Part shown: positions 3,377 through 31,690 of the stretch, one piece after another | Layout: each line of letters starts with the position of its first letter | Position numbering within the stretch: position 1 is the stretch's first letter | Origin: Flavobacteriales bacterium | Lineage (GTDB): Bacteria > Bacteroidota > Bacteroidia > Flavobacteriales_D > Sanyastnellaceae | Assembly: GCA_020437755.1 (NCBI GenBank) | Contig: JAGQVX010000026.1 | Coordinates: 1 to 35,303 of the forward strand | Length of the DNA stretch: 35,303 nt | Reading direction: 5' to 3' | Position numbers and translations under genes: made by a program | The notes under the pieces: generated by a model | The model's input: only the letters and a program-made list of their open reading frames with translations | Told to the model about the DNA's origin: nothing | Database searches by the model: none

Positions 3377-6300
3377 ATGGAAGAGCAAAACCCTCAATCC
3401 AACGAAAATATTGACAAAGCCCACAACAAAGAGTTTGGCTTGTCGTCGTGGTCGATAACCAACCGCACAACGGTTTGGGTCATCACAACCATTATTCTGC
3501 TTGGTGGTCTGATATCCTACATTCAGGTTCCCAAGGAAAGTTTCCCGGAGATTATTATTCCGGAGATTTTCATCACTACTGCCTATCCGGGTAACTCTCC
3601 CGAAGACATTGAAAAACTGATTACGCGTCCGCTGGAGAAGGAGCTCAATGCCATTACGGGAATTGATGAAATGACTTCTACGTCGCAGCAAGGGTTTTCA
3701 ACGATCGACATCAAATTTGACTTCGATGTCACCCCCACTGAAGCCTTGCGCAAGGTGAAAGACAAGGTAGACATTGCCTTGAGTGATCCCGACTTCCCCG
3801 ACGATCTGCCAGCCGATCCAAACGTAATCGAGCTGAACTTCTCGGAACTCATCCCCATTATGAACATCAACCTCTCGGGAGATTATTCGTTGGATGACCT
3901 GGAAGACTACGCCGAAATTCTGGAGGAACGCATCGAAGACCTCCCACAGATCTCGAAGGTGGATATTAAAGGGGTGATGGACAAAGAGGTGGTCATTGAA
4001 CTGGACTACCTCGCCATGGAAGCCCGCGAATTGAGCTTCGGCGATGTTGCAGGGGCCGTAGCCGGTGAAAACCTCACCATCTCGGGCGGTGACCTCAAGG
4101 TAGATGATTTCCGCCGAAGCGTGCGCGTGGTAGGTGAATTTGGCAATATGGACGATATCCGAAACATTATCGTTAAATCGGAAGGCGGACACATTGTCTA
4201 TTTGCGCGACGTCGCCAATGTGAGCTTTATTGAAAAAGAAAAAGAGAGCTACGCACGGGAATACCTGAATCCGGTTGTGAGTTTAGATGTCATCAAACGT
4301 GCCGGAGAAAACCTCATTGAAGCTTCGGAATCCATCAATGCCATTATTGATGAGGCCAAAGCCAATGACCTCCCTCCTAACCTGCAAATTACCCTCACCA
4401 ACGATCAAAGCGATATGACCGTGACCCAGGTGAGCGAGCTGGAAAACAGCATCATCTTCGGTATTTTGTTGGTTGTAGGTGTACTCTTGTTTTTCCTCGG
4501 ACTGCGTAACGCTCTTTTCGTGGGTGTGGCTATTCCACTGTCGATGTTCATGTCGTTCATGATCCTGTCGGCTGCGGGAATTACCCTCAATGTGATGGTG
4601 TTGTTTTCTTTGGTTCTTGCCCTGGGGATGCTGGTGGACAACGGAATTGTGGTCGTGGAGAACATCTACCGTCTCATGGACGAAGGCCTTTCGCCCGTGC
4701 GGGCGGCCAAGAACGGAGTGGGTGAAGTAGCCTGGCCAATTATCGCCTCTACAGCCACAACGCTGGCGGCATTCGTGCCCCTGATGATATGGCCGGGGAT
4801 GATGGGAGAATTCATGAAATACCTCCCTTTGACACTGATCATTGTTTTGAGCTCATCGTTGTTTGTGGCGCTGGTCATCAACCCCATGCTGACTTCGGTT
4901 TTCATGAAGGTGCACGAAAGCGACATCGTTCAAAACCGCAAGCAGTTGATTCTTTCAGCAGTGTTGTTGCTGGTAGCGTTGATGCTCACCGCTCCGGGTA
5001 GTCCGGCAGCGGCAATAGGCTACCTGCCCTTTTTGGTAGCGCTGGTGCTTCTGTTGAGCAAGTACATGTTCGTGACCCATACGTCAACGTTAAAAGATGT
5101 ACTTCCTGGAGTTTCGGTACTAATTGCTTTTGGTATTCTCAACTACCTGATTGGCAACAACGGAATCGGAAATATCCTGACTGTATCAGGACTGTTTGGT
5201 GTGTTGAATCTGTACGTACTGTATCCACTTAGCGAGACCTTCAAGGACAAGTTCCTCCCCTGGCTGGAAGATAAGTACCGTGACTTTGTTTCCTACGCCA
5301 TGCGAGGTATCAACCCTATTCTCACCATTGTTGGGATGATTGTGTTGTTCTTTGTTTCATTTTTCCTGCTGGGAATTTTCACACCCAAAGTGGAGTTTTT
5401 CCCAAGCAACCAGCCACAATACCTCAACGTTTTCATTGAAAAACCCATTGGAACTGACATTGAATCGACCAATGAAATCAGTCAGGAAATCGAAGCCCGT
5501 GTATTGGAGGTGCTCGGAGAAGATCAGTGGAAGCGCGAAACTGAAGATGGAAAGCTGGAGGATTTTCTGGTGACCTCTGTCATCGGACAGGTTGGAAATG
5601 GAACCAGCGACCCGGCACAGGGTCCGGTGTTTGGAAATACGCCCAACAAGGCACGTATTACCGTATCATTTGTAAAAGCTGCTGATCGAACCGATAAGAG
5701 TACGGTAGACGTTTTGAACCGTTTGCGTGAGGCTCTCTCCGACTATCCCGATGCAGAAATTGTAGTGAGCAAGAACGAAGATGGACCTCCCCAGGGTGCG
5801 CCTATCAATATTGAAATTGCGGGCGACAACTACGACACGCTTATGTTTGCTGCCGAGGAGATGCGTGAGTTCATCAACAGCCGGCGCATTGCGGGAATCG
5901 AAGAGTTGAAAATCGACGTGAACAAGCAGATGCCTGAGATGCCGATTAAAATTGACCGTGACAAGGCGCGTCGTTTTGGATTAAGCACAGGGCAAATAGG
6001 CGATGCGATCCGCACCGCTCTCTTTGGGCGCGAAATTTCAACGTACAAAGAAGGCGAAGATGATTACCCCATCAATATGCGCTTCAAGCAAGAATACCGC
6101 GATGATCCGGGAGCATTGCTCAATCAGAAGATCACCTTCCGCGACCCGTCTAATGGACGCATTAAGCAGGTTCCGATTTCGGCGGTAGCCAGCGCCTCAT
6201 ACGAGCGTTCGTTCAGCGCGGTAAAGCGTAAGGACATGGAGCGGGTGATTACCATTACTTCCAATGTACTGGAAGGATACAATGCCAATGAAGTAGTGGC

Positions 6301-7006
6301 CAGCATCAAGCGTGAACTGGTAGATTTCAATGCACCCTCCGGAGCCACGTATGATTTTACCGGACAGCAAGAAGAACAGGCCAAGGAAATGTCGTTTTTG
6401 GGAACAGCCTTCTTGATTGCCGTTTTCTTGATTCTGCTGATCATTGTAGCTCAGTTCAACTCATTCTCCACTCCGGTGATCATCATCGCCTCGGTGATGT
6501 TCAGTCTGATTGGGGTATTGTTGGGACTGGTGATTTTCCAAATGAACTTCGTCATCATCATGACCATGATTGGTATTATCTCCCTGGCGGGGGTTGTGGT
6601 GAACAACGCAATTGTACTTATCGACTACACCAATTTGTTGCGCGAGCGACGAAGAAACGAATTGGGCATTGTTGATGGACACCTGCCGTTTCACGAAGTG
6701 ATAGAGGCCATTGTACGAGGCGGCCAGACCCGTCTTCGTCCGGTATTGCTTACTGCTATTACTACGGTATTGGGTCTGTTGCCACTGGCAATGGGAATCA
6801 ACATCGACTTCATTGGCTTGTTCACTGAATTTGACCCTCACTTCTATGTTGGAGGTGACAACGTTATTTTCTGGGGACCGATGTCGTGGGCCATTATTTT
6901 CGGTCTCACCTTCGCTACCTTCCTTACCCTGGTGGTTGTACCGGTGATGTACCTGCTCCTTGCCCGACTGAAATACAAGTGGGTATTTAAAGAGCCTGTG
7001 AAATAA
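3377..7006 (+). CDS. RND-superfamily efflux pump, inner membrane permease
   Basis: A 1209-residue proton-driven transporter, longer than the roughly 1050 of AcrB. The first transmembrane helix is near residues 32-50, followed by VPKESFPE and a large porter domain. TM4 carries LALGMLVDNGIVVVENIYR, which keeps the first of the two AcrB TM4 aspartates and has Asn at the second. The TM10-equivalent reads VVVNNAIVLIDY, with Asn where AcrB has its relay lysine. Between the two halves, residues about 515-630 hold an extra hydrophobic block with at least three possible membrane helices that AcrB lacks. A second porter domain follows, then the final helices with a short periplasmic insert (TEFDPHFYVGGD). 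It is last in the operon. Export of drugs, lipids or other amphiphiles is a family-level expectation; the substrate is unknown. Confidence 0.93.
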   Translation: MEEQNPQSNENIDKAHNKEFGLSSWSITNRTTVWVITTIILLGGLISYIQVPKESFPEIIIPEIFITTAYPGNSPEDIEKLITRPLEKELNAITGIDEMTSTSQQGFSTIDIKFDFDVTPTEALRKVKDKVDIALSDPDFPDDLPADPNVIELNFSELIPIMNINLSGDYSLDDLEDYAEILEERIEDLPQISKVDIKGVMDKEVVIELDYLAMEARELSFGDVAGAVAGENLTISGGDLKVDDFRRSVRVVGEFGNMDDIRNIIVKSEGGHIVYLRDVANVSFIEKEKESYAREYLNPVVSLDVIKRAGENLIEASESINAIIDEAKANDLPPNLQITLTNDQSDMTVTQVSELENSIIFGILLVVGVLLFFLGLRNALFVGVAIPLSMFMSFMILSAAGITLNVMVLFSLVLALGMLVDNGIVVVENIYRLMDEGLSPVRAAKNGVGEVAWPIIASTATTLAAFVPLMIWPGMMGEFMKYLPLTLIIVLSSSLFVALVINPMLTSVFMKVHESDIVQNRKQLILSAVLLLVALMLTAPGSPAAAIGYLPFLVALVLLLSKYMFVTHTSTLKDVLPGVSVLIAFGILNYLIGNNGIGNILTVSGLFGVLNLYVLYPLSETFKDKFLPWLEDKYRDFVSYAMRGINPILTIVGMIVLFFVSFFLLGIFTPKVEFFPSNQPQYLNVFIEKPIGTDIESTNEISQEIEARVLEVLGEDQWKRETEDGKLEDFLVTSVIGQVGNGTSDPAQGPVFGNTPNKARITVSFVKAADRTDKSTVDVLNRLREALSDYPDAEIVVSKNEDGPPQGAPINIEIAGDNYDTLMFAAEEMREFINSRRIAGIEELKIDVNKQMPEMPIKIDRDKARRFGLSTGQIGDAIRTALFGREISTYKEGEDDYPINMRFKQEYRDDPGALLNQKITFRDPSNGRIKQVPISAVASASYERSFSAVKRKDMERVITITSNVLEGYNANEVVASIKRELVDFNAPSGATYDFTGQQEEQAKEMSFLGTAFLIAVFLILLIIVAQFNSFSTPVIIIASVMFSLIGVLLGLVIFQMNFVIIMTMIGIISLAGVVVNNAIVLIDYTNLLRERRRNELGIVDGHLPFHEVIEAIVRGGQTRLRPVLLTAITTVLGLLPLAMGINIDFIGLFTEFDPHFYVGGDNVIFWGPMSWAIIFGLTFATFLTLVVVPVMYLLLARLKYKWVFKEPVK

Positions 7007-8451: not shown

Positions 8452-9717
8452 CTACCTCGTCCCTATCAGCGCTCCGGGAGTGCCCGTTATTGAATTGGCT
8501 GTCCACACCGTTGTACCGCTGGAATTGGTGCCAAATCCGTAGGCCGTGCTTGAAGTGAAGACCACAATGCTATGACCGGCGCGGTCCCAACCGATGGGGG
8601 TACTGCCGGTGGCCTGAGCTACCCACGTATTGGAACCGGTGCTGAGCTTACCAAAGCCGTACAGCAAATCAGATGTTACCAACACAATCATACCGCTTGT
8701 AACTACGGCGTCGATCACGGGAGACGACAAGGTCTGAACAAACCAGGTGCTCGACGGAAAGGAATTGTTGCCAAAGGCATAGGCGTGGGTATCGGTATAC
8801 ACCACAATGGAACTATCATTGGCTACGGCACCTTGCACCGTGCCGGAAAGCTGCTGGGTGGACCAGGTATAAGAGGGAAACGAGTTTTGGCCATATCCAT
8901 AGGCGTACTCAGGAGTGTACAGGACAATCTTGCCGTTGTTGGTGGCCAGGTGTTCACAGTCTCCATCTACCAGTCCGGTTAAACCCTGTGGGCCTTGAGG
9001 TCCCTCCGGACCTGGGGGACCCGCCATACCGGTTTCTCCCTGCTCTCCCTGCTCACCTTGAGGCCCCGGGGCACCTTCAGCTCCGTTCAACCCGGGTTCG
9101 CCCTGAGGACCCGCCGGACCGAGCAGACTTCCTTGCAGCTCCCAGGAACTATTTATTTTATAATAATACATTCCGGTGCTGCTGTCGATATATACATCAC
9201 CATCGGCTCCATCCTCATCGTTGGGCGCAGTGTCTCCGGAAAGAATTGTCGCACCATCCATACCCGGTTCGCCCGGGATTCCTTGCGGGCCTTCCGCACC
9301 GGGTGGGGCGTTGAGCGCCAGGGTGGCCGTTTCGGCATGAAGGGCATATGGTACCGACATCAATTGCTGTTCTCCCAACAGCACAAATCCCTGTCCCAGG
9401 TCGAGCTCAATACGTGCAAAAAAGGTATGATCGCCCCAGGATATGGCGTCAAATGTCCCAATGGATTCAGCTCCTTCGCCGATGACAAAATTGACCAGCC
9501 CCAATTCATTGGACACCACATTGTGCTCTTCCTGATAGGCTGTTGGTCCGTTCATGCTGTCCTCCAATATCGACACACGAAACGTTCCCGCCTGGTTCAT
9601 GAGTAAAACGCCCTCATCATCGCGCAAAGCCGCCTGATAATTCACTCCCTGGGGAGTCTGACCTATTCCGGTTACTGCCACCAATAGGGCCAGCATGGTT
9701 TGTAGTATTCGCATCAT
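8452..9717 (-). CDS. collagen-like secreted surface protein with C-terminal four-fold repeat
   Basis: A 421-residue exported protein. A signal peptide ending in VTGIGQ is followed by a beta-rich N-terminal domain (about 20-130: TPQGVNYQAALRD through LMSVPYALHAETA) recurrent in Bacteroidota tail-fibre-like and collagen-like proteins. Gly-X-Y triplets occupy about residues 140-155 and again about 199-250, split by a YID/YYYK module. The C-terminal 165 residues hold four repeats of about 40-45 residues, each with a hydrophobic strand then AYGYG, AYAFG, LYGFG or AYGFG and a conserved Trp. This resembles a small beta-propeller or beta-solenoid. No T9SS tail is visible here, but the gene overlaps the stop of a T9SS type A gene by 4 bases. 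Probably a trimeric cell-surface fibre; the function is unknown. Confidence 0.75.
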   Translation of the reverse strand: MMRILQTMLALLVAVTGIGQTPQGVNYQAALRDDEGVLLMNQAGTFRVSILEDSMNGPTAYQEEHNVVSNELGLVNFVIGEGAESIGTFDAISWGDHTFFARIELDLGQGFVLLGEQQLMSVPYALHAETATLALNAPPGAEGPQGIPGEPGMDGATILSGDTAPNDEDGADGDVYIDSSTGMYYYKINSSWELQGSLLGPAGPQGEPGLNGAEGAPGPQGEQGEQGETGMAGPPGPEGPQGPQGLTGLVDGDCEHLATNNGKIVLYTPEYAYGYGQNSFPSYTWSTQQLSGTVQGAVANDSSIVVYTDTHAYAFGNNSFPSSTWFVQTLSSPVIDAVVTSGMIVLVTSDLLYGFGKLSTGSNTWVAQATGSTPIGWDRAGHSIVVFTSSTAYGFGTNSSGTTVWTANSITGTPGALIGTR

Positions 9718-10183: not shown

Positions 10184-10729
10184 CTAATCAACAATAAGTT
10201 TATCAATATCATCACGAATGGACTGCCTAATTCGCGAAACATATTTAGCTCGCCTTCCTAAATTCGTCCCATAATTTGCTACTTCTTTAGGTAATGCAAT
10301 CATTTCCTGACCTTGATATATAAACACGAATGTGCTATGAGAGAAATTACATTCTTCGGGTTCGTGCCTAAGTTGCATTACCGCAACTACTGATTCAACA
10401 TTACCTTGATTATCAAATTCCTCTTCATAATTGACTCCGCTACCATTTGTCAATGGAGAATCCTCCAAAGTCATAGTAGTAATTGGACCATTATCGAATC
10501 TATACTCGCCATCCTGAATGTAGTGACGTACATCATCCGGCTGGCTGAGCAACCATTCCTGTCTTCCACTTCGATTGACAGATATATGAGCTAGTGAAAT
10601 TCCCGAATACGCCAATTCCTTTCCAAAATCTCCTCTTCTATACAAGTATTCTTCCGATAAGAATTCGGGAATAATATTCCTTCCTTCTCTATGCAAGCGC
10701 GGTGGTATTTCCTCATATTCACATGCCAT
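10184..10729 (-). CDS. hypothetical protein, third gene of AT-rich cassette
   Basis: A 181-residue protein I do not recognise. It has no signal peptide or membrane segment, so it is probably cytoplasmic. It is rich in acidic residues (EYEEIPP, YEEEFDNQ, HEPEECN), looks mostly beta in the first 150 residues, and ends in a basic helix (LGRRAKYVSRIRQSIRDDIDKL). A hydrophobic strand STFVFIYQGQEMIALP precedes that helix. The start is the only sensible ATG, 15 bases after the stop of the preceding gene. Base composition is clearly more AT-rich than in the flanking genes, as for its two partners. The stop codon sits inside a small palindrome (GTTGAT-cta-ATCAAC, 10178-10192). It is real as a gene by spacing and co-orientation; the function cannot be stated. 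Confidence 0.6.
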   Translation of the reverse strand: MACEYEEIPPRLHREGRNIIPEFLSEEYLYRRGDFGKELAYSGISLAHISVNRSGRQEWLLSQPDDVRHYIQDGEYRFDNGPITTMTLEDSPLTNGSGVNYEEEFDNQGNVESVVAVMQLRHEPEECNFSHSTFVFIYQGQEMIALPKEVANYGTNLGRRAKYVSRIRQSIRDDIDKLIVD

Positions 10730-10744
10730 CGGAATAATGAAGAA

Positions 10745-11230
10745 TTAGGCCAAGAAACTCCTTAAGAGGTCATGAATATTGATAGCTCCAAAATCCAGAA
10801 ATTCCCGATGATTCTCATCACGGTTGGCGGACTTTATAGAAAACATCACATCACCAAATTCATTTATTGCTATCAACTTTCTCTTATTTTCTTTTCTTCT
10901 ACCAATGACTACCTCCGAATCAATGGAATCCTCCATAATGATCTTTCCTTCCACAACATATTCCAACAAGGCCGAAGTAATCAGTTCAAACGTTTCCAAT
11001 TGTTCGGCGGTCATATTCATTTTAGCTACCAGCTTCTGAAATTGATTCCGGATATGAATATCATATGTTCGCGTGAATGATGAAGTACCGGAACACACGT
11101 TTTTCTCAATATTGAATTGTGCCAATACATTCGAATACGAATTTCGGTTATACCCGGCTGAATTCCTGCTTTTAAATCCTCGTGCAATGGAAATATTGCT
11201 GACGGGAGGTGCATCAACTGTAAAGCTCAT
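10745..11230 (-). CDS. hypothetical protein, second gene of AT-rich cassette
   Basis: A 161-residue cytoplasmic-looking protein of unknown family. The N-terminal 55 residues are polar and Ser/Asn-rich with little predicted structure (IARGFKSRNSAGYNRNSYSN). A helical stretch about residues 63-93 (FQKLVAKMNMTAEQLETFELITSALLEYV) comes next, followed by a beta-rich segment with a lysine-rich turn (IGRRKENKRKLIAINEFGDVMFSI). It lies three bases after the TIGR04255-like gene and 15 bases before the third gene, so the three are almost certainly one transcript. It has the same AT-rich composition. No catalytic motif, zinc ligand set or transmembrane helix is visible. It could be a small partner or regulator of the first gene, but that is only position-based. 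Confidence 0.6.
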   Translation of the reverse strand: MSFTVDAPPVSNISIARGFKSRNSAGYNRNSYSNVLAQFNIEKNVCSGTSSFTRTYDIHIRNQFQKLVAKMNMTAEQLETFELITSALLEYVVEGKIIMEDSIDSEVVIGRRKENKRKLIAINEFGDVMFSIKSANRDENHREFLDFGAINIHDLLRSFLA

Positions 11231-11233
11231 ATT

Positions 11234-11983
11234 CTATAAATAATTTTTTAAAGCAAGTTCTGATAGTGTGCCAAAGAATATATCATTCTTAATCGTCCGC
11301 ATGGTATTTAATGTAGAATCTAAGGAATCTGAAATTAGTAAATTATCTATGGTAAACACGTCAACATCAAATATCATGCTCACTTGGTTATCCTTAATCT
11401 CATTTAATGTAAGGGTTATACCGGCTTTGATATTATTCTCAAATGGAACTGTGATTTGAACGAAGAAATTATCCAACACTTGGGGAATTGTATTTGGTAG
11501 TGTTGGCACCATTCGGATATAATCACCAATTGGCTTCCCGGGAACAAACTCGAATTCAATGTTGTTGATATATCTAACTCCAACTCGAGATATCCTAGTA
11601 TTGTCCAAATACTTGCTAAATTCAGCCCATTCATATCTCATCATGCCGAGTAACTCATCCCATTTGGTATACGGTGGCAAAACGTGACAAGAAAAGGACT
11701 CAGAAGCCGCTTGTACCAACCTGCTGCCATTTTCACTTTTCAGAAGGCAGCCCACAATTCTCCTCTCCCTTTTGACCTCATCTTGATTTTCAGTATTTGG
11801 AATTTCAACTTTTAATTCCACTGAATCTTTTTTATCCGGGTAACGTGAGGTTGCTCCTTCGGCGTATTTCTGAATCTTCGACAATAGATTGCCATCTTTC
11901 GAACTAAAACGAAAGTCCAAAATCGCCTCTTGAATTGGAGGATTACTGAGAAATGTTGTTGTTTTAAGCATGTGCACGTTCAT
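11234..11983 (-). CDS. TIGR04255-like protein, first gene of AT-rich cassette
   Basis: A 249-residue protein when started at the ATG used here. The longest frame begins 17 codons earlier at TTG and reads as non-coding upstream sequence. Another ATG lies four codons further in. The N-terminal motif FLSNPPIQEAILDFRFS matches the opening PPI-E-hydrophobic-R-F signature of the family named TIGR04255, defined by sporadic distribution across bacteria and archaea and without known biochemistry. A second recognisable block is RISRVGVRYINNIEF near residue 120. There is no signal peptide or membrane helix. It leads a tight three-gene unit of low G+C (18 of 60 bases at 11281-11340 by hand count). The family call is from memory of the motif and is moderately secure. 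The role is unknown; sporadic occurrence suggests an accessory or defence function. Confidence 0.65.
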   Translation of the reverse strand: MNVHMLKTTTFLSNPPIQEAILDFRFSSKDGNLLSKIQKYAEGATSRYPDKKDSVELKVEIPNTENQDEVKRERRIVGCLLKSENGSRLVQAASESFSCHVLPPYTKWDELLGMMRYEWAEFSKYLDNTRISRVGVRYINNIEFEFVPGKPIGDYIRMVPTLPNTIPQVLDNFFVQITVPFENNIKAGITLTLNEIKDNQVSMIFDVDVFTIDNLLISDSLDSTLNTMRTIKNDIFFGTLSELALKNYL

Positions 11984-12165
11984 GATGTCACTGACAGGAC
12001 CACCAAGATGTCTAAAATAATGAACTCTGCACAATTAACAAGGAGTAATTTCCGAACACTGAATGTTTAATTGTTACAAGGTTTCGTACAATATTCAAAG
12101 CATTTCAGATGACCCAAACATCCTTTAGAGCATTCCTATACTGACTATTGAATCTATACCTTTTG

Positions 12166-21406: not shown

Positions 21407-21496
21407 CAAATTAAAAAGAAATTGTAACCAATTTGATTGGAAACGTATACACGAGCAACTTATAACTATTCACTGCACGTGAATAAACTCTTTCGT

Positions 21497-24400
21497 ATGG
21501 TATCTGCCCTATATCACCACTACCGAAAGGCGCTGTCAATGGCGTTGTTCGGTTTGCTATGTACAGCAACATTCGCGCAGTTCGACACTGAATTCTGGAT
21601 GCCTCCTATCTGGAACTCTGGTGTTTCCTCGCAAAACAACCCTTCGGAGTTGTTCATTACAACACCGTATCCCACTCCGGTAAATGTCCACATCGAAACC
21701 CCCGATGGGGTCACTTTCGTGTTGGATACAACTGTAGTTTCGGGTGAACCACTTTCGGTGCCACTCACTCCTAGTTTGGGTCAAACGCAACAGTACAACA
21801 CGGTGATAACCAACAATGGCTTCCTTGTTACTTCCAATGCACCTATACAGTGTGTGCACAAGGTCGCGGGTCAGTTCAACCAAACCCTTGTGACTTTGAA
21901 AGGACCCAACGGACTGGGACAAGAATTTTACTGCGGAAGCCAGGTGCGAAACATGAACGCAATGTATGGTACCCAGGAGCACCACTTCATTTCGGTAATG
22001 GCCCTGGAAAACAATACCACCATCACATTCGACACCCCTTACAACATGTATGACGGTGGCGGCACATTGGCCAATCCCTTTGTGTTGACCCTTGACCAAT
22101 ACGAGTGTTATCTCATTCGCGGAAATGGTCCTACGCAGCACGTTGCAGGTGCTCATGTGACCTCCGACAAAGACATTGCGGTAATTTCAGGATCAACCCA
22201 TACCCGAATCCTCGGTGGAGGTGCGGCAGATGGTGGGGTTGACCAATTGGTTCCTATTGAGCTCATGGGCAAGGAATTCGTTTTCATCAAGGGAGATAAC
22301 AACGTTCCTTTTGACTACGCCATTGTAATTGCCACTGAAGACAATACAGCCATCTATCTCGATGGTTCGGCAACTCCTCTCACGACAATCGACCAGGGTG
22401 AATACTACGATATTACAACTACGGGTTCATTTGGAGATGCGCATTACATTAAAACCGACAAAGTAGCCTATTGCTATCACGTTACAGGCGCGTCATTGGA
22501 CGATGAAGTAGGAATGTCGGCATTACCTCAAATTGATTGTACAGGAAGCCGATATATCGAATTCTCAAAATTCGCATCAAATGCCAGCAATCAAATCATG
22601 AACGTGATTTGTCCGCCGGATGCTGAGCCAACATTGGAATTCAACAACATTTACTACCAATCCGTTCCCGGAGCCATTTATGGAAGCGTTCCCGGAAAAC
22701 CGGGGTGGATCAGTGTTTCTTTTCCCAACTCAGCCCTGCAAGATGACAACCTCTTGACTTCAGAAGGTTTTTTCCATGCCGGTTTCCTTACCGGTAATGC
22801 CGGCTCATCGGGTACTTATGGATTTCTCTCCGGATTCAACGATGCTTTCGAGTTTCTTGATCCAAATTCAGGTTTGCCAACAACCATTTACATGGTCGAT
22901 ACACTTTGTGGCGGACAAACCATTGATCACTGTCTTGAAGTATTCTCGTGTGGAATCGATCACAACATCATCGATTTTGAAGGAAACGACGGTACCGTGG
23001 TAATTACACCTGCCAGCACTCCTTTTGACACGTGTTTTTCATACACAGCTCCATTTAACTACAGCGGGCTGGATACCATAACGTTTACCGTTGACAACTC
23101 TTTCGGATTTACAGGTTCAGTTGACGTGGTGTTTATGGTGGTTAACCCCAATACACCCATTGATGCCGGACCCATTCAAGAATTGTGTTCGGAGACCACC
23201 GGTACGTTGAGTGCTATCAACCCTGACCCATGGGTGGATGGATACTGGACGGTTCTGGCCGGCGGTGCAACATTGGTAGATCCCAATTCACCTACCACTC
23301 AAGTCACCAACCTCTCCCTGGGAACCAATACGTTCCTGTGGACACAGGATTACGGGTGCCAAACAAAATTTGATATTACCCAAATCATCGTCTATGATGG
23401 AACCGCACCTGTCGCCGACGCCGGTGACGATGTAGATCTTTGTTCCGATGACAATACGTTTAACATGCAAGCTAATGACCCGCAGTTCACTGCTACGGGA
23501 ACCTGGGAAATCATACTTGGATCAGCAACTATTTGGAATATCAACGACCCGAATGCTCTGGTAACCAACCTCGGCATTGGTGAGAACATCTTTGAATGGA
23601 ATATCGACAATGGTCCCTGCCCGGGTGGTAGTACTGTCGATGCCATGTCCATTTTTGTATTCGATCAAAACCACCCTCAACCCGATGTGGGTCCGGATCA
23701 GGATTTCTGTTCCGATGCCTTCACATCTGCATCCGTCTCCGTGACCGAACCTATTTTCCCCGCAGTGGGACAATGGGAACTCGTAAGTGGGTCGGGTGAT
23801 ATCACGGATCCGCTTGACTTTGAAACAACGATCACCAACTGCGGGATAGGGGAAAACGTATTTGCCTGGGTCATCGACAACGGCCCTTGCGGTGAGTTGA
23901 GCGATACCCTTACCATTACCATCTATGACAGCGGTGTGGCCGCTGCCGACGCCGGAACGGGAACTCAATACTGTACCCCAACAACCAGCCACATCATGGA
24001 TGCCGCAGAACCTGCCGGACCCGGACAGGGAACATGGACCTTGATTTCTGGGGCGGGTGTTATAGTAAGTCCCAACGATCCCACAAGTGTGATCAACAAC
24101 CTCGCCGTTGGAGATAATATCTTCCAATGGACAATCGATAATGGTCCGTGTGCGAATACCGGTGACTTTGATCAGGTAACCATTACCATTTTCGACGAGA
24201 GTCAGGATTTGGCGGATGCCGGAACTGACCAGGAATTTTGCGCTGCCGGATTTGTAAACGCGCAACTTGATGCCAGTGAAATCATTTATCCGGGAGAAGG
24301 ATTGTGGACCGTTGTAAGTGGAACAGGAACCTTTGCCGATCCCACCGACCCCAACACCACCGTATCCGGACTGTCGGTTGGATCCAACGTGTTCCAATGG

Positions 24401-27400
24401 ACCGTAGGAAACGGCCCATGTAACTTCCCAACGCTGGACACTGTTGAAATTGTCATCTTCGACGACAACCAAAACCCTGCCGATGCGGGTCCTGATGTGT
24501 CGTTCTGTACCCCTACTTCAACGTACGTCATGCAAGCAGTGGCTCCAACCTCACCCTCGGTGGGTGAGTGGACACTGATCTCCGGTACAGGAACCATCAA
24601 CAACGTAAACAACCCCAACTCGAATATTTCCGGATTGGGAATTGGAGAAAACATTTTCCGCTGGACGATCCTGAACGGACCTTGTCCCGGAAGTTCAAAT
24701 TTCGATGAGGTTTCGATTTTCATATTTGACGAAAACGCCCCTGCAGCCGATGCAGGTGACGACCAGGAATGGTGCTCTGATGCAGCTATTCCCGTAAATA
24801 TCAACCTGGCAGCTAATGCACCCATTTTCCCCGGCACGGGAATGTGGACCTTGATTCAGGGTTCCGGTACGATTGTAGATCCTACCGATCCCAACACGGC
24901 TGTAATGGTACTGGGTGAGGGTGAAAACATCTTTGAATGGCAAATCGACAACGGACCCTGTCCGCCCAACGTGTCAACCGATCAGGTTTCCATTTTTGTA
25001 TATCCATGGAACCAGGCCGCCGCTAATGCCGGTCCGGATCAGGATATTTGTTCCGACAACCCAACCACAGTGCTTGCTGCCAACAGCACTACCTTCCCGG
25101 CATCGGGAATGTGGAGTGTGGTATCAGGGAGTGGAACCTTCGCTGATGCCAGCGACCCTAACACTACAGTTTCCGGATTGAGTGTGGGTATTAACGTTTT
25201 GGAATGGACCATCGACAACGGTCCCTGTGATCCCTCAACAACGAGCGATCAGGTTACCATTTTGGTATTCGATGCCAGCCTAGCATTTGCAGATGCCGGT
25301 TCAGACCAAACCATCTGCTCAAGCGCGGGAAGCATCATCATGTCTGCCAACGATCCGGTAAACCCTGCTACGGGAGTGTGGACTGTTATTTCAGGTTCGG
25401 GAGACTTCTCGGATGCCAACGATCCGGAAGCTACCGTCACCAACCTCAGCGTGGGTACGAATGTATTCCAATGGACTGTGGATAACGGACCATGTTCGGG
25501 ATCAACTTTCGATCAAATGACTGTTGTGGTATATGATGCTACATCCCCTGCTGCCAATGCAGGTCCAAATCAGTCGCTCTGTACACCTACGACTTCGACC
25601 AACCTTGCCGCCAACACTCCGGTTTCCCCTGCGGTGGGAACATGGACCCTGGTATCCGGCACGGGAACCATATCCAATGCCAATGATCCGGGAACGCTGG
25701 TTACAGGACTGGCAGTGGGAGCGAACGTATTCCAATGGTCGATTAACAACTCACCTTGTGCTCCGGCCACGACGGTAGATCAGGTAACGATTTTCGTATA
25801 TAACGGCACGGCCACAACAGCTCTGGCTGGAAGTGATCAGGAATTCTGTACACCGGTTTCCTCGACTCTGCTCAATGGAAATGCTCCGGTTTATCCAGCC
25901 ACCGGTGTGTGGACGCTGGTATCGGGAAGTGGAACCATTGTTTCACCTTCCAACCCCAATACGCAGGTTACCGGTCTGGCTGTTGGAGAAAATATTTTCG
26001 AATGGACCATCACCTCCGGACCTTGCGCGGTTTCGACCAGTTCGGACCAGATGTCGGTATTTATTTATGACAACAACCAGGCTCCGGCCAATGCCGGTGC
26101 CGATCAGGAATACTGTTCCGATGTTACTACAGCCACGATGGCTGCCAACGCAGTGACCTTCCCGGCCACCGGCTCGTGGACCCTCGTGAGCGGAACAGGA
26201 GTCTTTGACGATCCTTCCGACCCAAATACGGGTGTAAGTGGCTTGACCATAGGAACCAACGTGTTCCAGTGGACTATCGATAATGGTCCGTGTGGTGCAC
26301 CCACCAGCGACACCATGACCATCCTGATCTACAATGTTTCCGCACCCAACTCGGATGCGGGTCCCGACCAGGATTTGTGTACGCCCACTACCTCTACTAC
26401 CATGAGTGCCAACGTAGCTGAAGCTCCGGCTGTAGGTACGTGGTCATTGGTGAGCGGCTCCGGATCGATTGCCAATGTAAACGACCCGAATACAGCTATA
26501 ACCGGACTCGGTATTGGCGAAAACGTATTTCAATGGACGCTCAACAACGGCACCTGTTCGGGCGGTGAAACTTCCGACCAGGTGATCATTACCGTGTTCA
26601 ACAGCGCCCAGGCGAATGCCGCTGCAGGAATTGACCAAAACTTGTGTACTCCACAAACCTCAACATTCCTCAACGGAAACAACTACAGCTTCCCTGCACA
26701 AGGAACCTGGTCGCTCGTATCCGGTTCAGGAACCATTGCGGATCCCAACGATCCTCAGACCGAGGTAACTGCTCTTGCTATTGGTGAAAACATATTCCAA
26801 TGGACCATTACCAACGGGCCCTGTGCCAACTCGTTGACCACCGATCAGGTGTCCATCTTTGTATTTGATGGTGGTGCGCCGCAAGCAAATGCAGGCATTG
26901 ATCAGGAGTTGTGCTCGCCAACCACCACAACCGTGATGACTGCTGACGCAGCCGTTTCACCGGGAACAGGTGTTTGGTCGCTCATTGGTGGAACAGGAAC
27001 CATTACCACTCCGTCTGATCCGAATACAGGAATTACCAACCTCTCGATTGGTGTAAACACCTTCGTGTGGACCCTCGACTATGCTACATGTGGTACCCAG
27101 TCCGACACGGTACAGGTGATTGTTTACGACAGCACGGTACCGGCTGCAGAAGCCGGCCCCGATCAGGAGCTGTGTACCCCTACTAGTTCTACAGCTCTCA
27201 ATGCCGATGCTGTCAATGCACCGGGTTACGGAACCTGGTCGCTCGTTTCCGGAAGCGGAACGTTTGCCGATGCCAACGATCCGGGAACCACCGTGGACAA
27301 CCTGAGTGTGGGAGAAAATATTTTTGTGTGGACGGTTTACAACGGACCTTGTCTGCTTGCACCTGAAACCACCGACACCATCAGCGTCTTTGTATTTGAC

Positions 27401-30400
27401 GTGAATCAGGCATCCGCCAATGCGGGGGCTGATCAAGAATGGTGTACGCCAACCTCATCGACATTCCTCGATGGAAACAGCATAACTTTCCCGGCCATAG
27501 GAACCTGGACCTTGATATCCGGTAGCGGAACGATTGCCGATCCAAACGACCCGGAAACCGAAGTCACCGGCCTTGCCGTGGGAGAGAACGTATTTCAATG
27601 GAGTGTAGATAACGGTTCATGTGCCGGCGCATTGACTACCGATCAGGTTAGCATCTTTGTGTACGACCAAAACCAGCCTGCGGCCAATGCCGGCCCCGAT
27701 CAGGAGTGGTGTACGCCAGTCGCTAATATTTCACTGGCGGGAAGTTCGGTCACGTATCCGGGATCGGGTGTATGGACACTCGTTTCGGGAACAGCCACCA
27801 TTTTGGACCCCGCAAATCCCAACGCTACGGTAACCGGACTTGCTGTGGGAGAAAACATTTTCCAATGGACGGTCGACAACGGACCGTGCAGTCAGCCAAC
27901 ATCAGACGTGGTATCCATATTCATTTTCAGTCAGTTTAATGACGATGCCAACGCAGGTGCTGATCAGGAACTTTGTACTCCGGACGAGTCTACCAATCTG
28001 GCAGGAAATACTCCTATTTACCCGGCATCAGGAATGTGGACCCTGGTGAGTGGAAGTGGAACCATTGCCGAGCCTGCAAACCCCAATACGTTGGTTACAG
28101 GTCTGACCATTGGAGAGAACATTTTCATGTGGACCGTGGATAACGGACCTTGCGCCAACGGCGTCACGACCGATGTCGTATCCATTTTCGTATTCGATGC
28201 CAACGCACCTTTGGCGAATGCCGGAGCCGACCAGGAATTCTGTACTCCTGTAAGCTCAACATTCATGGACGCTACCGATCCGGTGTTCCCTACTTCGGGT
28301 ACGTGGACCCTCGTATCGGGAAGTGCAACCATTGTGGATGCCAACGATCCTCAAACTGAAATTACCAACCTTGCCTTTGGAGAGAACATCTTCCAATGGA
28401 CGGTTTACAACGGACCCTGTTCAACAACCAACAGCACCGACCTGGTGAGTATATTCATCTTCGATGAAAACCAGGCCGATGCCAATGCCGGTGCTGACCA
28501 GTTGATGTGTATGCCTCAAAATACCACATTGCTCAATGGTAACCCTGCAATTTACCCTGCAACAGGAACCTGGACACTGGTCTCGGGAAGTGGAACCATA
28601 GTAAACCCATCCAATCCGAACACGCAGGTCACCAACCTGGGTATTGGCAACAATGTGTTTGCCTGGACCATTCTCAACGGGCCATGTGCTAATGCCACCA
28701 CTATCGATGAGGTGACTATAAGTGTATTCGACAATGAAATGATGGCCGCAGATGCGGGCCCTGATCAGGAATTCTGCATGCCAACCGATTTTGCGGTGCT
28801 CAATGGCAATACCCCGGTTGTTCCGGCTACCGGTGTGTGGACTCAGGTTCAGGGAACCGGTAATATTCTGGATCCTACCAGCCCACTGACTTCAGTGGTC
28901 AATCTGGGAATTGGTGAAAACATCTTTGCCTGGACAGTAAGCAATGGTCCATGTGGAACGACTGAAGATCTGGTATCAATCTTTATCTATGACCCGGCAG
29001 CGCCAGTGGCCGATGCAGGAGCCGATCAGGAGTTTTGTACTCCGGTGAGTACCACCGTTATGACTGCCAATACACCGGCTGATCCCGGTGTGGGAACCTG
29101 GGAACTCATCGGCGGAAACGGAACCATCCAAAACGTCAACAACCCATCGACCAACATCTCCGGTTTGACCATTGGGGAGAACATCTTCACGTGGACCATC
29201 TATAATGGCCCATGTGCGGAACCTACGGTAGATACGGTTTCGATCTTCATTTTCGACGAAAATGCACCCGATGCCGACGCCGGCAACGATGTGGAAATCT
29301 GTCTGCCCCTTAATGAGGTTCAAATGGATGCCAATGCGGCCATTTTCCCTGCACTGGGAACATGGACCCTCGTAAGTGGATCAGGAACTATTGTAGATCC
29401 GAATGACGAAAACACCATGATCACCGGATTGGGATTGGGTACCAACACGTTTATGTGGACCCTTGACAATACTCCGTGTAACGAAGGAATTACCAGCGAC
29501 ACCGTGGATATTCTCGTATTCGAGGAAGAAATCGATCCGATCTATGCCGGACCAGACCAATTCCTGTGTACACCGGTTACGACTGTACTCATGGCGGCTG
29601 ATGCTATTTCCGATCCCAATACGGGATTTTGGACGGTTGCCGATGGAACAGGCGTCTTTGGTGATGCCACCGACCCCAATACGATTATAAGCGGACTTAC
29701 CGTGGGAATCAACCAGTTTGTGTGGCACGTTGATAACGGTCCGTGTACCATGAATATGTATACCGACACGGTGGACGTGTACATCTACGATGAAGCGCAC
29801 CCTGCAGCCGATGCCGGTCTGGATCAGGAGCTTTGTCTGCCTGTAAACACCACCGACCTCGATGGAAACCTTCCCATTGTTCCGGCTATTGGAACCTGGA
29901 CATTAATCGAGGGTAGTGCAACCATCGTAGATCCGAATGATCCGAACACGGATATTACTGACCTTGCCGTGGGTGTGAACACCTTTGTGTGGACTATAGA
30001 CAATGGCCCATGTGATAATACGATGACCGCCGATACAGTATCCGTACTCGTATTTGAGGAGGATGCCCTTTTGGCGAATGCCGGAGAAAATATTGAATTA
30101 TGTACCCCACAATCATGTGTAACGCTCAACGCTGAAACCCCTTCTTCACCTACAACAGGAACTTGGACGTGGGTAGAAGGCGGAGGAACCATCAGCGATG
30201 TGAATGACCCCAACGCGGAGGTATGTGCCCTTACCGTTGGCCACCATGTGTTGCAGTGGGAAATTTACAACGGACCTTGTACCAATAACTACAGCTTCGA
30301 CTTTGTAGAAATCGACGTGTACGATGCCAATGCCAACCCGTCCAACGCGGGTGAAGATCAGGAATTGTGCTGGCCAACTAACGCCACGGTGCTTGAGGCC

Positions 30401-31690
30401 GACATTCCGATGTTCCCGGCAGTGGGTACCTGGGATTTGATTGATGGTAGCGGATCCATTTCCGACCTCAACGATCCCAATGCCGATTTCACCGAACTCA
30501 GCATTGGCATCAGCATCCTTACCTGGACGGTTTATAACGGACCGTGCAACGAAATGACGATCGATACGGTTCAAATCAGCGTGTTTGACCCTATGTCGCC
30601 CAATGCAGATGCCGGGGAAGATCAGTGGTTCTGTACTCCATTTGGTGGAACCAACCTGGAAGGAAACATGCCTGCACCTCCGGCAACGGGGACGTGGACA
30701 CTCATTTCGGGATCGGCCGATATCGACAATGCTTCGGTCAATAATACTGCCGTGAATAACCTCGGCCTGGGCGAAAACATCTTCGTATGGACTGTGTACA
30801 ATGGCGCCTGTGCCAATTCATCAACATCCGATACCGTAAGTGTTTTTGTCAACGATCTCACTGTGGCGCAAGCTAACGCGGGAGCCGATTTATTCTTCTG
30901 TGGAGCCGTTGACTCACTCATGATGGATGGTAGTGAAACCATCGGAAATACCGCGTTTGGTGAATGGACGATCCTGCAAGGCGGGGGAACGTTTGCCAAT
31001 ACCGCCAATGAACACTCCATGCTGTACGATATACCTGTAGGTGTGAACGAATATGTATGGACCGTGGACAATGGAGCGTGCGGCATCTCGACCGATACCA
31101 TGCAAATTGTCATTTACGATCCTCTGCTCGATCAGGCCTTTGCCGGATTCGACGAGGAAATTTGTCAGGACGAATTTGTAGAATTCAACCTCGAGGCCAA
31201 TGCCGTAGAATGGCCGGCTACCGGATGGTGGGAAATTCTCGAAGGAGATATCGAAATCAGCGACCTGAACGATCCATCGGCTACAGTGCTCGATTTGGGA
31301 ACCATCCTTGAACCCCTCACTACCATTACCAACGTGCTCGTATGGACGGTGGACAATGGAGTGTGTGGCACTACTTCAGATACCTTGGTGTACGTCCTGG
31401 AAGACTGTTTAACGCTCGATATCCCCGATGCCTTCTCGCCCAATGGTGACGGTATCAATGATGTGTTTGAAATCCCCAATTTGTATAAGTATCCCAACAA
31501 TTCCCTGAAGATTTTCAACCGCTGGGGAATGCTCGTGTACGAGTCGGCGCCCTACTTTGAAAACTGGGATGGTACCTCTTCTCACCCGGCCACTATTGGT
31601 CAGGAGCTTCCGGTTTCGACCTATTACTACATCCTCGATCTCGGCAATGGTGCTGAGGCATTCACAGGATATATCTACCTCAAACGATAG
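21497..31690 (+). CDS. giant T9SS type B adhesin: IgGFc-binding-like domain, 31 tandem modules, gliding-motility C-terminal domain
   Basis: A 3397-residue protein from the ATG chosen here. The longer frame begins 20 codons earlier at TTG; the ATG gives a signal peptide ending LLCTATFAQ. Residues about 30-460 resemble the IgGFc-binding N-terminal domain of Bacteroidota surface proteins (DTEFWMPPIWNSG, a central ISVMALENNTTITF block, HVTSDKDIAVISGS). One Ig-like or cadherin-like domain with four cysteines follows, then 31 modules, then the CHU_C/TIGR04131 tail (IPDAFSPNGDGINDVFEI, IFNRWGMLVYES, FTGYIYLKR) that marks type B cargo. Such cargo needs PorP/SprF-like partners, and one is encoded 12 bases downstream. 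Role inferred: a very long, disulfide-stiffened surface filament for adhesion or gliding. The reading frame is intact throughout. Confidence 0.93.
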   Translation: MVSALYHHYRKALSMALFGLLCTATFAQFDTEFWMPPIWNSGVSSQNNPSELFITTPYPTPVNVHIETPDGVTFVLDTTVVSGEPLSVPLTPSLGQTQQYNTVITNNGFLVTSNAPIQCVHKVAGQFNQTLVTLKGPNGLGQEFYCGSQVRNMNAMYGTQEHHFISVMALENNTTITFDTPYNMYDGGGTLANPFVLTLDQYECYLIRGNGPTQHVAGAHVTSDKDIAVISGSTHTRILGGGAADGGVDQLVPIELMGKEFVFIKGDNNVPFDYAIVIATEDNTAIYLDGSATPLTTIDQGEYYDITTTGSFGDAHYIKTDKVAYCYHVTGASLDDEVGMSALPQIDCTGSRYIEFSKFASNASNQIMNVICPPDAEPTLEFNNIYYQSVPGAIYGSVPGKPGWISVSFPNSALQDDNLLTSEGFFHAGFLTGNAGSSGTYGFLSGFNDAFEFLDPNSGLPTTIYMVDTLCGGQTIDHCLEVFSCGIDHNIIDFEGNDGTVVITPASTPFDTCFSYTAPFNYSGLDTITFTVDNSFGFTGSVDVVFMVVNPNTPIDAGPIQELCSETTGTLSAINPDPWVDGYWTVLAGGATLVDPNSPTTQVTNLSLGTNTFLWTQDYGCQTKFDITQIIVYDGTAPVADAGDDVDLCSDDNTFNMQANDPQFTATGTWEIILGSATIWNINDPNALVTNLGIGENIFEWNIDNGPCPGGSTVDAMSIFVFDQNHPQPDVGPDQDFCSDAFTSASVSVTEPIFPAVGQWELVSGSGDITDPLDFETTITNCGIGENVFAWVIDNGPCGELSDTLTITIYDSGVAAADAGTGTQYCTPTTSHIMDAAEPAGPGQGTWTLISGAGVIVSPNDPTSVINNLAVGDNIFQWTIDNGPCANTGDFDQVTITIFDESQDLADAGTDQEFCAAGFVNAQLDASEIIYPGEGLWTVVSGTGTFADPTDPNTTVSGLSVGSNVFQWTVGNGPCNFPTLDTVEIVIFDDNQNPADAGPDVSFCTPTSTYVMQAVAPTSPSVGEWTLISGTGTINNVNNPNSNISGLGIGENIFRWTILNGPCPGSSNFDEVSIFIFDENAPAADAGDDQEWCSDAAIPVNINLAANAPIFPGTGMWTLIQGSGTIVDPTDPNTAVMVLGEGENIFEWQIDNGPCPPNVSTDQVSIFVYPWNQAAANAGPDQDICSDNPTTVLAANSTTFPASGMWSVVSGSGTFADASDPNTTVSGLSVGINVLEWTIDNGPCDPSTTSDQVTILVFDASLAFADAGSDQTICSSAGSIIMSANDPVNPATGVWTVISGSGDFSDANDPEATVTNLSVGTNVFQWTVDNGPCSGSTFDQMTVVVYDATSPAANAGPNQSLCTPTTSTNLAANTPVSPAVGTWTLVSGTGTISNANDPGTLVTGLAVGANVFQWSINNSPCAPATTVDQVTIFVYNGTATTALAGSDQEFCTPVSSTLLNGNAPVYPATGVWTLVSGSGTIVSPSNPNTQVTGLAVGENIFEWTITSGPCAVSTSSDQMSVFIYDNNQAPANAGADQEYCSDVTTATMAANAVTFPATGSWTLVSGTGVFDDPSDPNTGVSGLTIGTNVFQWTIDNGPCGAPTSDTMTILIYNVSAPNSDAGPDQDLCTPTTSTTMSANVAEAPAVGTWSLVSGSGSIANVNDPNTAITGLGIGENVFQWTLNNGTCSGGETSDQVIITVFNSAQANAAAGIDQNLCTPQTSTFLNGNNYSFPAQGTWSLVSGSGTIADPNDPQTEVTALAIGENIFQWTITNGPCANSLTTDQVSIFVFDGGAPQANAGIDQELCSPTTTTVMTADAAVSPGTGVWSLIGGTGTITTPSDPNTGITNLSIGVNTFVWTLDYATCGTQSDTVQVIVYDSTVPAAEAGPDQELCTPTSSTALNADAVNAPGYGTWSLVSGSGTFADANDPGTTVDNLSVGENIFVWTVYNGPCLLAPETTDTISVFVFDVNQASANAGADQEWCTPTSSTFLDGNSITFPAIGTWTLISGSGTIADPNDPETEVTGLAVGENVFQWSVDNGSCAGALTTDQVSIFVYDQNQPAANAGPDQEWCTPVANISLAGSSVTYPGSGVWTLVSGTATILDPANPNATVTGLAVGENIFQWTVDNGPCSQPTSDVVSIFIFSQFNDDANAGADQELCTPDESTNLAGNTPIYPASGMWTLVSGSGTIAEPANPNTLVTGLTIGENIFMWTVDNGPCANGVTTDVVSIFVFDANAPLANAGADQEFCTPVSSTFMDATDPVFPTSGTWTLVSGSATIVDANDPQTEITNLAFGENIFQWTVYNGPCSTTNSTDLVSIFIFDENQADANAGADQLMCMPQNTTLLNGNPAIYPATGTWTLVSGSGTIVNPSNPNTQVTNLGIGNNVFAWTILNGPCANATTIDEVTISVFDNEMMAADAGPDQEFCMPTDFAVLNGNTPVVPATGVWTQVQGTGNILDPTSPLTSVVNLGIGENIFAWTVSNGPCGTTEDLVSIFIYDPAAPVADAGADQEFCTPVSTTVMTANTPADPGVGTWELIGGNGTIQNVNNPSTNISGLTIGENIFTWTIYNGPCAEPTVDTVSIFIFDENAPDADAGNDVEICLPLNEVQMDANAAIFPALGTWTLVSGSGTIVDPNDENTMITGLGLGTNTFMWTLDNTPCNEGITSDTVDILVFEEEIDPIYAGPDQFLCTPVTTVLMAADAISDPNTGFWTVADGTGVFGDATDPNTIISGLTVGINQFVWHVDNGPCTMNMYTDTVDVYIYDEAHPAADAGLDQELCLPVNTTDLDGNLPIVPAIGTWTLIEGSATIVDPNDPNTDITDLAVGVNTFVWTIDNGPCDNTMTADTVSVLVFEEDALLANAGENIELCTPQSCVTLNAETPSSPTTGTWTWVEGGGTISDVNDPNAEVCALTVGHHVLQWEIYNGPCTNNYSFDFVEIDVYDANANPSNAGEDQELCWPTNATVLEADIPMFPAVGTWDLIDGSGSISDLNDPNADFTELSIGISILTWTVYNGPCNEMTIDTVQISVFDPMSPNADAGEDQWFCTPFGGTNLEGNMPAPPATGTWTLISGSADIDNASVNNTAVNNLGLGENIFVWTVYNGACANSSTSDTVSVFVNDLTVAQANAGADLFFCGAVDSLMMDGSETIGNTAFGEWTILQGGGTFANTANEHSMLYDIPVGVNEYVWTVDNGACGISTDTMQIVIYDPLLDQAFAGFDEEICQDEFVEFNLEANAVEWPATGWWEILEGDIEISDLNDPSATVLDLGTILEPLTTITNVLVWTVDNGVCGTTSDTLVYVLEDCLTLDIPDAFSPNGDGINDVFEIPNLYKYPNNSLKIFNRWGMLVYESAPYFENWDGTSSHPATIGQELPVSTYYYILDLGNGAEAFTGYIYLKR
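23159..31417 (+). repeat. array of 31 tandem modules of about 266 bp (85-94 residues)
   Basis: Thirty-one consecutive modules, first at 23159, second at 23414, the 27th at 30074 and the last at 31136. The consensus is roughly A-x-A-G-x-D-Q-E-x-C-T-P, then P-x-x-G-x-W-T-L-V-S-G-S-G-T-I, D-P-N-D-P-N-T, G-E-N-I-F-Q-W-T-I-D-N-G-P-C, and V-S-I-F-V-F-D. One Cys near module position 10 and one near 70 are present in every module. At the DNA level modules differ widely in codon choice, so the array is old and kept by selection on protein sequence. Likely Ig-like beta-sandwiches, each closed by one disulfide. Confidence 0.92.

Follow-up and report, generated by a model that had tools for sequence, protein, structure and literature searches.

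Toxin-antitoxin-chaperone (TAC) modules, CmdTAC among them, consist of three co-directional genes in which a constant extra protein accompanies swappable toxin-antitoxin pairs, and a role against phage is possible. CmdTAC is the closest worked three-part example. Its chaperone senses a capsid protein, and the toxin is then set free (PMC11618068). A second point of reference is PDC-M32, a two-gene phage-defence candidate in PADLOC whose members are designated PDC-M32A and PDC-M32B. Finally, TIGR04255 (sporadTIGR04255) is an NCBIfam subfamily whose entry gives a protein name only, with no function and no partners. The literature searched contained no paper that mentions it.

The window, a stretch of 35,303 nucleotides from contig JAGQVX010000026.1 of a Flavobacteriales bacterium, contains a three-gene cassette headed by a TIGR04255 protein. 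Its features are as follows.

11984-12165, minus strand: intergenic stretch upstream of gene A, presumed operon promoter region
11234-11983, minus strand: gene A, TIGR04255 family protein, 249 aa, ATG start, the constant component
11564-11575, minus strand: RYIN motif of A, one of the best conserved TIGR04255 stretches
10745-11230, minus strand: gene B, occupying the second slot, 161 aa, probably the cognate antitoxin or an adaptor
10184-10729, minus strand: gene C, 181 aa, third slot, probable effector or toxin of an unnamed family
10337-10366, minus strand: HEPEECNFSH, residues 122-131 of C, carrying the HxPx3[N/D]x2H signature, a candidate active site or metal site

The three-gene layout, the constant extra protein, the swappable pairs and the possible phage role are shared with TAC modules. 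The extra protein differs, being SecB-like in TAC modules, whereas A is modelled as a two-lobed, TBP-like protein. Several related cassettes encode second- and third-slot proteins that match PDC-M32A and PDC-M32B, although PDC-M32 as listed does not include TIGR04255.

Layout and composition of the cassette

The open reading frames bear out the preliminary description of three tightly packed minus-strand genes. Three bases separate A from B and 15 bases separate B from C. An alternative upstream TTG start would extend A to 266 aa. An S41 peptidase gene lies upstream of A at a distance of 182 bases, and the start of a T9SS-tail gene lies 17 bases past C. A promoter and terminator scan found nothing above chance, and no consensus promoter stands out in 11984-12165.

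The cassette had been singled out for its AT-richness, and it is the G+C minimum of the window. Its 1800 bases have 38.0% G+C, compared with a mean of 49.9% (sd 1.9, minimum 45.7%) in 1800-base windows outside it, which places it about 6 sd below the rest. The neighbours within the window are ordinary housekeeping, secretion and signalling genes, and there is no defence island. The window also encodes a secreted protein (8452-9717) in which a collagen-like stretch of GPxGxx repeats precedes repeated 'YGFG.NS...W' units. A very long ORF of 3417 aa occupies 21437-31690 on the plus strand.

Gene A and its predicted fold

The resemblance of the first gene to TIGR04255 was verified with the NCBIfam model, which scored 93.4 bits against a cut-off of 30. 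The match is full length, covering A residues 11-244 (234 residues) and profile positions 2-248 of 252. Among 30 members of the family the RYIN motif is conserved as R in 21/30, Y in 25/30, I in 26/30 and N or D in 29/30. A had no Pfam match at E<=1, TBP (PF00352) included, and PF00352 had no match anywhere in the genome from which the window comes.

An AlphaFold2 model of A, built from six sequences only, reached pLDDT 80.9 and pTM 0.78. It predicts two alpha/beta lobes, the first with the order beta-alpha-beta4-alpha and the second similar, fitting that topology approximately. Foldseek returned nothing below 0.018 when the model was compared with solved structures. Against viral models (BFVD) there were eight matches at E<=0.001. 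TBP and VETF matches ranged from 3e-4 to 3e-3, including the large subunit of VETF (early transcription factor) at 2.9e-4 and a Terrestrivirus TATA-binding protein at 6.3e-4. VIA-align placed guanidino kinases first (Z 8.3, rmsd 4.8, 181 residues). TBP scored Z ~6 over 150-173 residues at rmsd 5-6, and AdoMetDC also scored about 6. We felt that the guanidino kinase likeness should be set aside, which is a judgement, because beta-alpha-beta4-alpha is the topology of the first lobe and because a number of viral TBP-like models came up as independent matches.

We tentatively take a two-lobed, TBP-like arrangement as the best single reading of the model. The likeness is one of predicted fold. A differs from TBP in having no TBP sequence match, and no internal sequence repeat was detected when one was sought as proof of duplication. 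A is also acidic rather than basic. TIGR04255 proteins have a median pI of 5.41, and 23/30 members fall below 6, values that describe net charge and not the surface. This acidity favours protein partners over DNA. According to a published survey, TBP homologues in bacteria do not have the two-lobe form, and no two-lobed TBP-like sequences were reported from bacteria (PMC7221094).

Gene order and third-slot swapping

A total of 58 loci were read. They comprise 30 loci of the class (the window included) and 20 of the phylum; the remainder lie on plasmids of Crinalium, Thermus and Vibrio, in two Rokubacteria, in one Gemmatimonadota, in one unclassified bacterium and on one viral contig. Of the 58, 6 are in other phyla. 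Two small co-directional genes lie close behind A at 58/58 loci. At one of these (L045) the contig breaks off behind B, and the corresponding C opens at the end of another contig. At another, A is interrupted by a stop (L037).

Third-slot proteins were assigned to classes by us, members without a Pfam value of their own being placed by likeness. On this basis the unnamed superfamily of the window's C is the commonest occupant (35/58). PemK/MazF proteins occupy the slot in 5 loci (L135, Pfam 2.1e-14, with like proteins in L136 and L142-L144) and HEPN proteins in 4 (Pfam 4.2e-6 for L034, 1.1e-4 for L043 and 0.0043, below the curated cut-off, for L134). There is one PIN protein (L049, Pfam 1.5e-10) plus one PIN-like protein by eye, and one zeta toxin (L035, Pfam 3.1e-12). 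DUF7689 is found in 2 loci (L042, Pfam 8.7e-21; L067, Pfam 9e-45), a 'QGD...SNTCD' family in 5, and 4 loci have a family that was first encountered on the Crinalium plasmid. Known toxins thus fill only 11 or 12 of the 58 third slots. The A-B-C order is conserved in unrelated bacteria, and the third gene is swapped for known toxins.

Some of the other occupants have features of their own. The conserved pattern of the DUF7689 proteins looks cysteine peptidase-like. Third genes with 'QGD...SNTCD/SQACDI' motifs (L036, L054, L061, L138, L140) have no Pfam match and are a candidate new effector. In L033, L139, L141 and L146 a HEAT-like second gene is followed by a third gene of ~171 aa with 'ADAVTADLRTQ..LSFW' and no Pfam match. 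This gene pair is common to the cyanobacterial plasmid and to genomes of the window's phylum.

Genes B and C

B and C had been reported as unrecognised, and neither gave a convincing match in Pfam, NCBIfam or PADLOC. B has a C-terminal 'EIxI...IDEDGD'-like block, and in many B proteins the N-terminal end is long and variable. The window proteins have pI values of 6.8 (B) and 4.9 (C), without the usual split into acidic antitoxin and basic toxin. No catalytic domain is recognisable in C, and a model of C from two sequences was unusable (pLDDT 34).

Co-occurrence of the partners was one of the checks proposed at the outset, and relatives of B and C do recur with TIGR04255 elsewhere. Window-type B relatives occupy the second slot in six other genera, and window-type C lies behind A in seven other genera. 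Both are in matching slots at L038, L044, L047, L051, L055 and L045, and L145 has a further window-type C assigned by eye. A window-type C profile had strong matches (E<=1e-14) in 8/395 genomes, 7 of them linked to A; in the eighth a B-C pair lies behind a 115-aa gene (L106). By blastp the families of B and of C are largely the same. At E<=1e-3 the count is 26 pairs for B and 25 for C, of which 14 are common, against ~1.4 expected if independent. B and C are therefore coinherited.

The HxPx3[N/D]x2H signature of C has the same spacing in 13 third-slot proteins from subfamilies that are otherwise barely alignable. Profile comparison connected the C subfamilies, including that of PDC-M32, by a chain of weak matches. 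Window-type C matched the 'NxWH' type (E 1.5e-5), the chain continued to a short 'LSVD...AH' type (6.8e-4), and this type matched the PDC-M32B type (1.4e-5). Window-type C compared directly with PDC-M32B was not significant. Judging from these profiles and the common motif, the C subgroups likely form one superfamily. With the PADLOC models, neither window B against PDC-M32A nor window C against PDC-M32B gave a match at E<=1. PDC-M32A was matched by up to 7/28 second-slot relatives, and window-type B compared with the PDC-M32A-matching set gave a probability of only 5.6. TIGR04255 proteins did not match the PDC-M32 models.

B-C pairs without A, and defence genes nearby

Some B-C pairs lie behind other first genes. 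In L126, L128 and L129 the first gene encodes a protein of 620 aa whose C-terminus is DUF4209 (HEPN-type; Pfam 8.7e-7 for L129), and TIGR04255 is absent, which makes this a second architecture. Operons related to restriction have been noted to contain this HEPN family, DUF4209 (PMC3710099). In L106 and L127 the pair follows genes of ~115 aa, and in L131 it comes after a large methyltransferase. B has an extra N-terminal domain in L130 and L132. The L132 pair (~5100-6629, minus strand) combines a C with a PDC-M32-like B that is extended N-terminally by ~200 aa; it is located between a helicase and a methyltransferase, apparently inside a type III-like restriction operon. The variety of first genes indicates that first genes and B-C pairs are recombined independently of each other.

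Whether the neighbours are defence genes was another of the checks proposed at the outset. Such genes were found at some related loci, but the neighbours of the window cassette itself are ordinary. Restriction or defence genes were near A-B-C at five loci (L049, L052, L053, L057, L060), a raw count and not an enrichment. L049 is near a helicase, an IIG/DrmMI-like methylase and an AriA/HEC-01A-like ATPase. IIG genes are near L052 and L060, a type I methylase is near L053, and a type III restriction enzyme is encoded 40 bases downstream of L057. A DpdE/DrmD-like helicase is among the neighbours of this set.

Distribution and mobility

TIGR04255 was found in 29/395 genomes (24/197 genera) of a class sample, in 24/395 genomes (16/171 genera) of a phylum sample and in none of 14 control genomes. 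A single-protein search of 39 relatives found window B in no other. A genome of the same genus, with a histidine kinase 82% identical, has no cassette, and both flanks are in another gene order; since the order differs on both sides, no clean empty site can be demonstrated. Another genome of the family carries a cassette elsewhere, its B and C only ~17% identical. The distribution is sporadic, as expected with horizontal movement.

Foreign composition had been offered as a sign of transfer. The abnormal G+C and the sporadic distribution agree with this, but composition does not identify a source. Cassettes are AT-richer than their flanks at 30/33 loci (mean -8 points, Wilcoxon p 1.3e-8), and cassette G+C tracks host G+C loosely while the surroundings range from 31 to 71%. 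AT-richness is characteristic of such cassettes in general, and so the low G+C points to no single donor.

No direct relatives of window A were found in IMG/VR or the phage collection, and neither window B nor window C was found in plasmids. A complete A-B-C is present on a phage-like IMG/VR contig with a terminase-like gene. This was the sole IMG/VR cassette and came from the search with the PDC-M32B-type C.

Proposed mechanism and alternative explanations

The locus was first proposed to be a candidate accessory or defence system. None of the outcomes named in advance as refuting this came about: TIGR04255 matches, the partners co-occur with it elsewhere, the cassette is not conserved at this locus, and its composition is abnormal. 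The reading can be narrowed, since a toxin-antitoxin-like module is what the evidence more specifically favours. A constant A, a matched B and a third slot often filled by a known toxin fit a toxin-antitoxin pair controlled by A. We give roughly even chances to the cassette being a mobile three-part module of this kind, in which C would be the toxin, B the antitoxin and A the controller that releases C on a trigger. We infer the steps by analogy with known tripartite toxin-antitoxin systems. A would keep the B-C pair inactive, B acting as the cognate antitoxin or neutralising adaptor of C. On a trigger, most likely phage infection, A would release C, and the freed C would halt growth of the infected cell. 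For the window, the toxicity of C, its neutralisation by B and the part of A as controller or sensor are predicted from these parallels. The role of the module is probably anti-phage. Counting against this reading are the want of a recognisable catalytic domain in window C, the missing charge split between B and C, the ordinary neighbours of the window cassette, the small share of third slots with known toxins and the negative search for A in the phage collection.

A rather unlikely alternative is a three-protein anti-phage system without a separate antitoxin, in which A would sense phage nucleic acid or protein, B would be an adaptor, and C an enzyme activated by A-B. B-C pairs behind quite different first genes (L129, L106, L127, L130, L132) are what such a system would lead one to expect, PADLOC lists PDC-M32A and PDC-M32B as defence candidates, and the TBP-like lobes of RNase HIII bind RNA-DNA duplexes (PMC7221094). 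However, at ~11 loci the second and third slots hold a small upstream partner and a classic toxin, which is the toxin-antitoxin plan, and the acidity of A in 23/30 members is unlike most nucleic-acid sensors.

The layout, with its constant third party and swappable toxins, would also suit a strict TAC system in which A is a dedicated chaperone that folds a labile antitoxin B in a SecB-like manner. The long, variable N-terminal ends of many B proteins agree with this, and CmdTAC shows how such a chaperone senses a capsid protein (PMC11618068). We consider it improbable. No SecB-like protein was among the fold matches listed for A, which speaks against this explanation but does not prove that the folds differ. 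Quite improbable is an ordinary accessory operon, for example of small-molecule or stress enzymes, that is mobile by chance. The housekeeping, secretion and signalling genes around the window cassette are compatible with it, but replacement of the third gene by RNase toxins or a zeta kinase, the restriction neighbours and the sporadic distribution argue against it.

The toxin-antitoxin-like reading can be extended to the whole family, although we regard the extension as speculative and rather unlikely. TIGR04255 would then be a bacterial protein of two-lobed TBP fold, recruited as a universal controller, or as a sensor of infection, for some eight unrelated effector families of the third slot. 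Together these would make up a large and so far undescribed class of tripartite toxin-antitoxin defence systems, the commonest effector being a new HxPx3[N/D]x2H toxin superfamily.

Significance

The preliminary description called the cassette undescribed. As far as the literature was searched, this holds for A, the three-gene unit, the swappable effectors and the fold proposed for A, but relatives of B and C are already known as the PADLOC candidate PDC-M32. That candidate would be joined to a larger architecture. TIGR04255, an orphan family without a literature, would acquire a role as the constant component of a three-gene system that is both modular and mobile. In this system the occupant of the effector slot varies between RNase toxins, a kinase toxin, a DUF7689 protein and members of an unnamed superfamily. 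Many neighbours annotated as 'hypothetical' would become directly testable toxins and antitoxins, and A may represent a second kind of controller for toxin-antitoxin pairs, beside the SecB-like chaperones.
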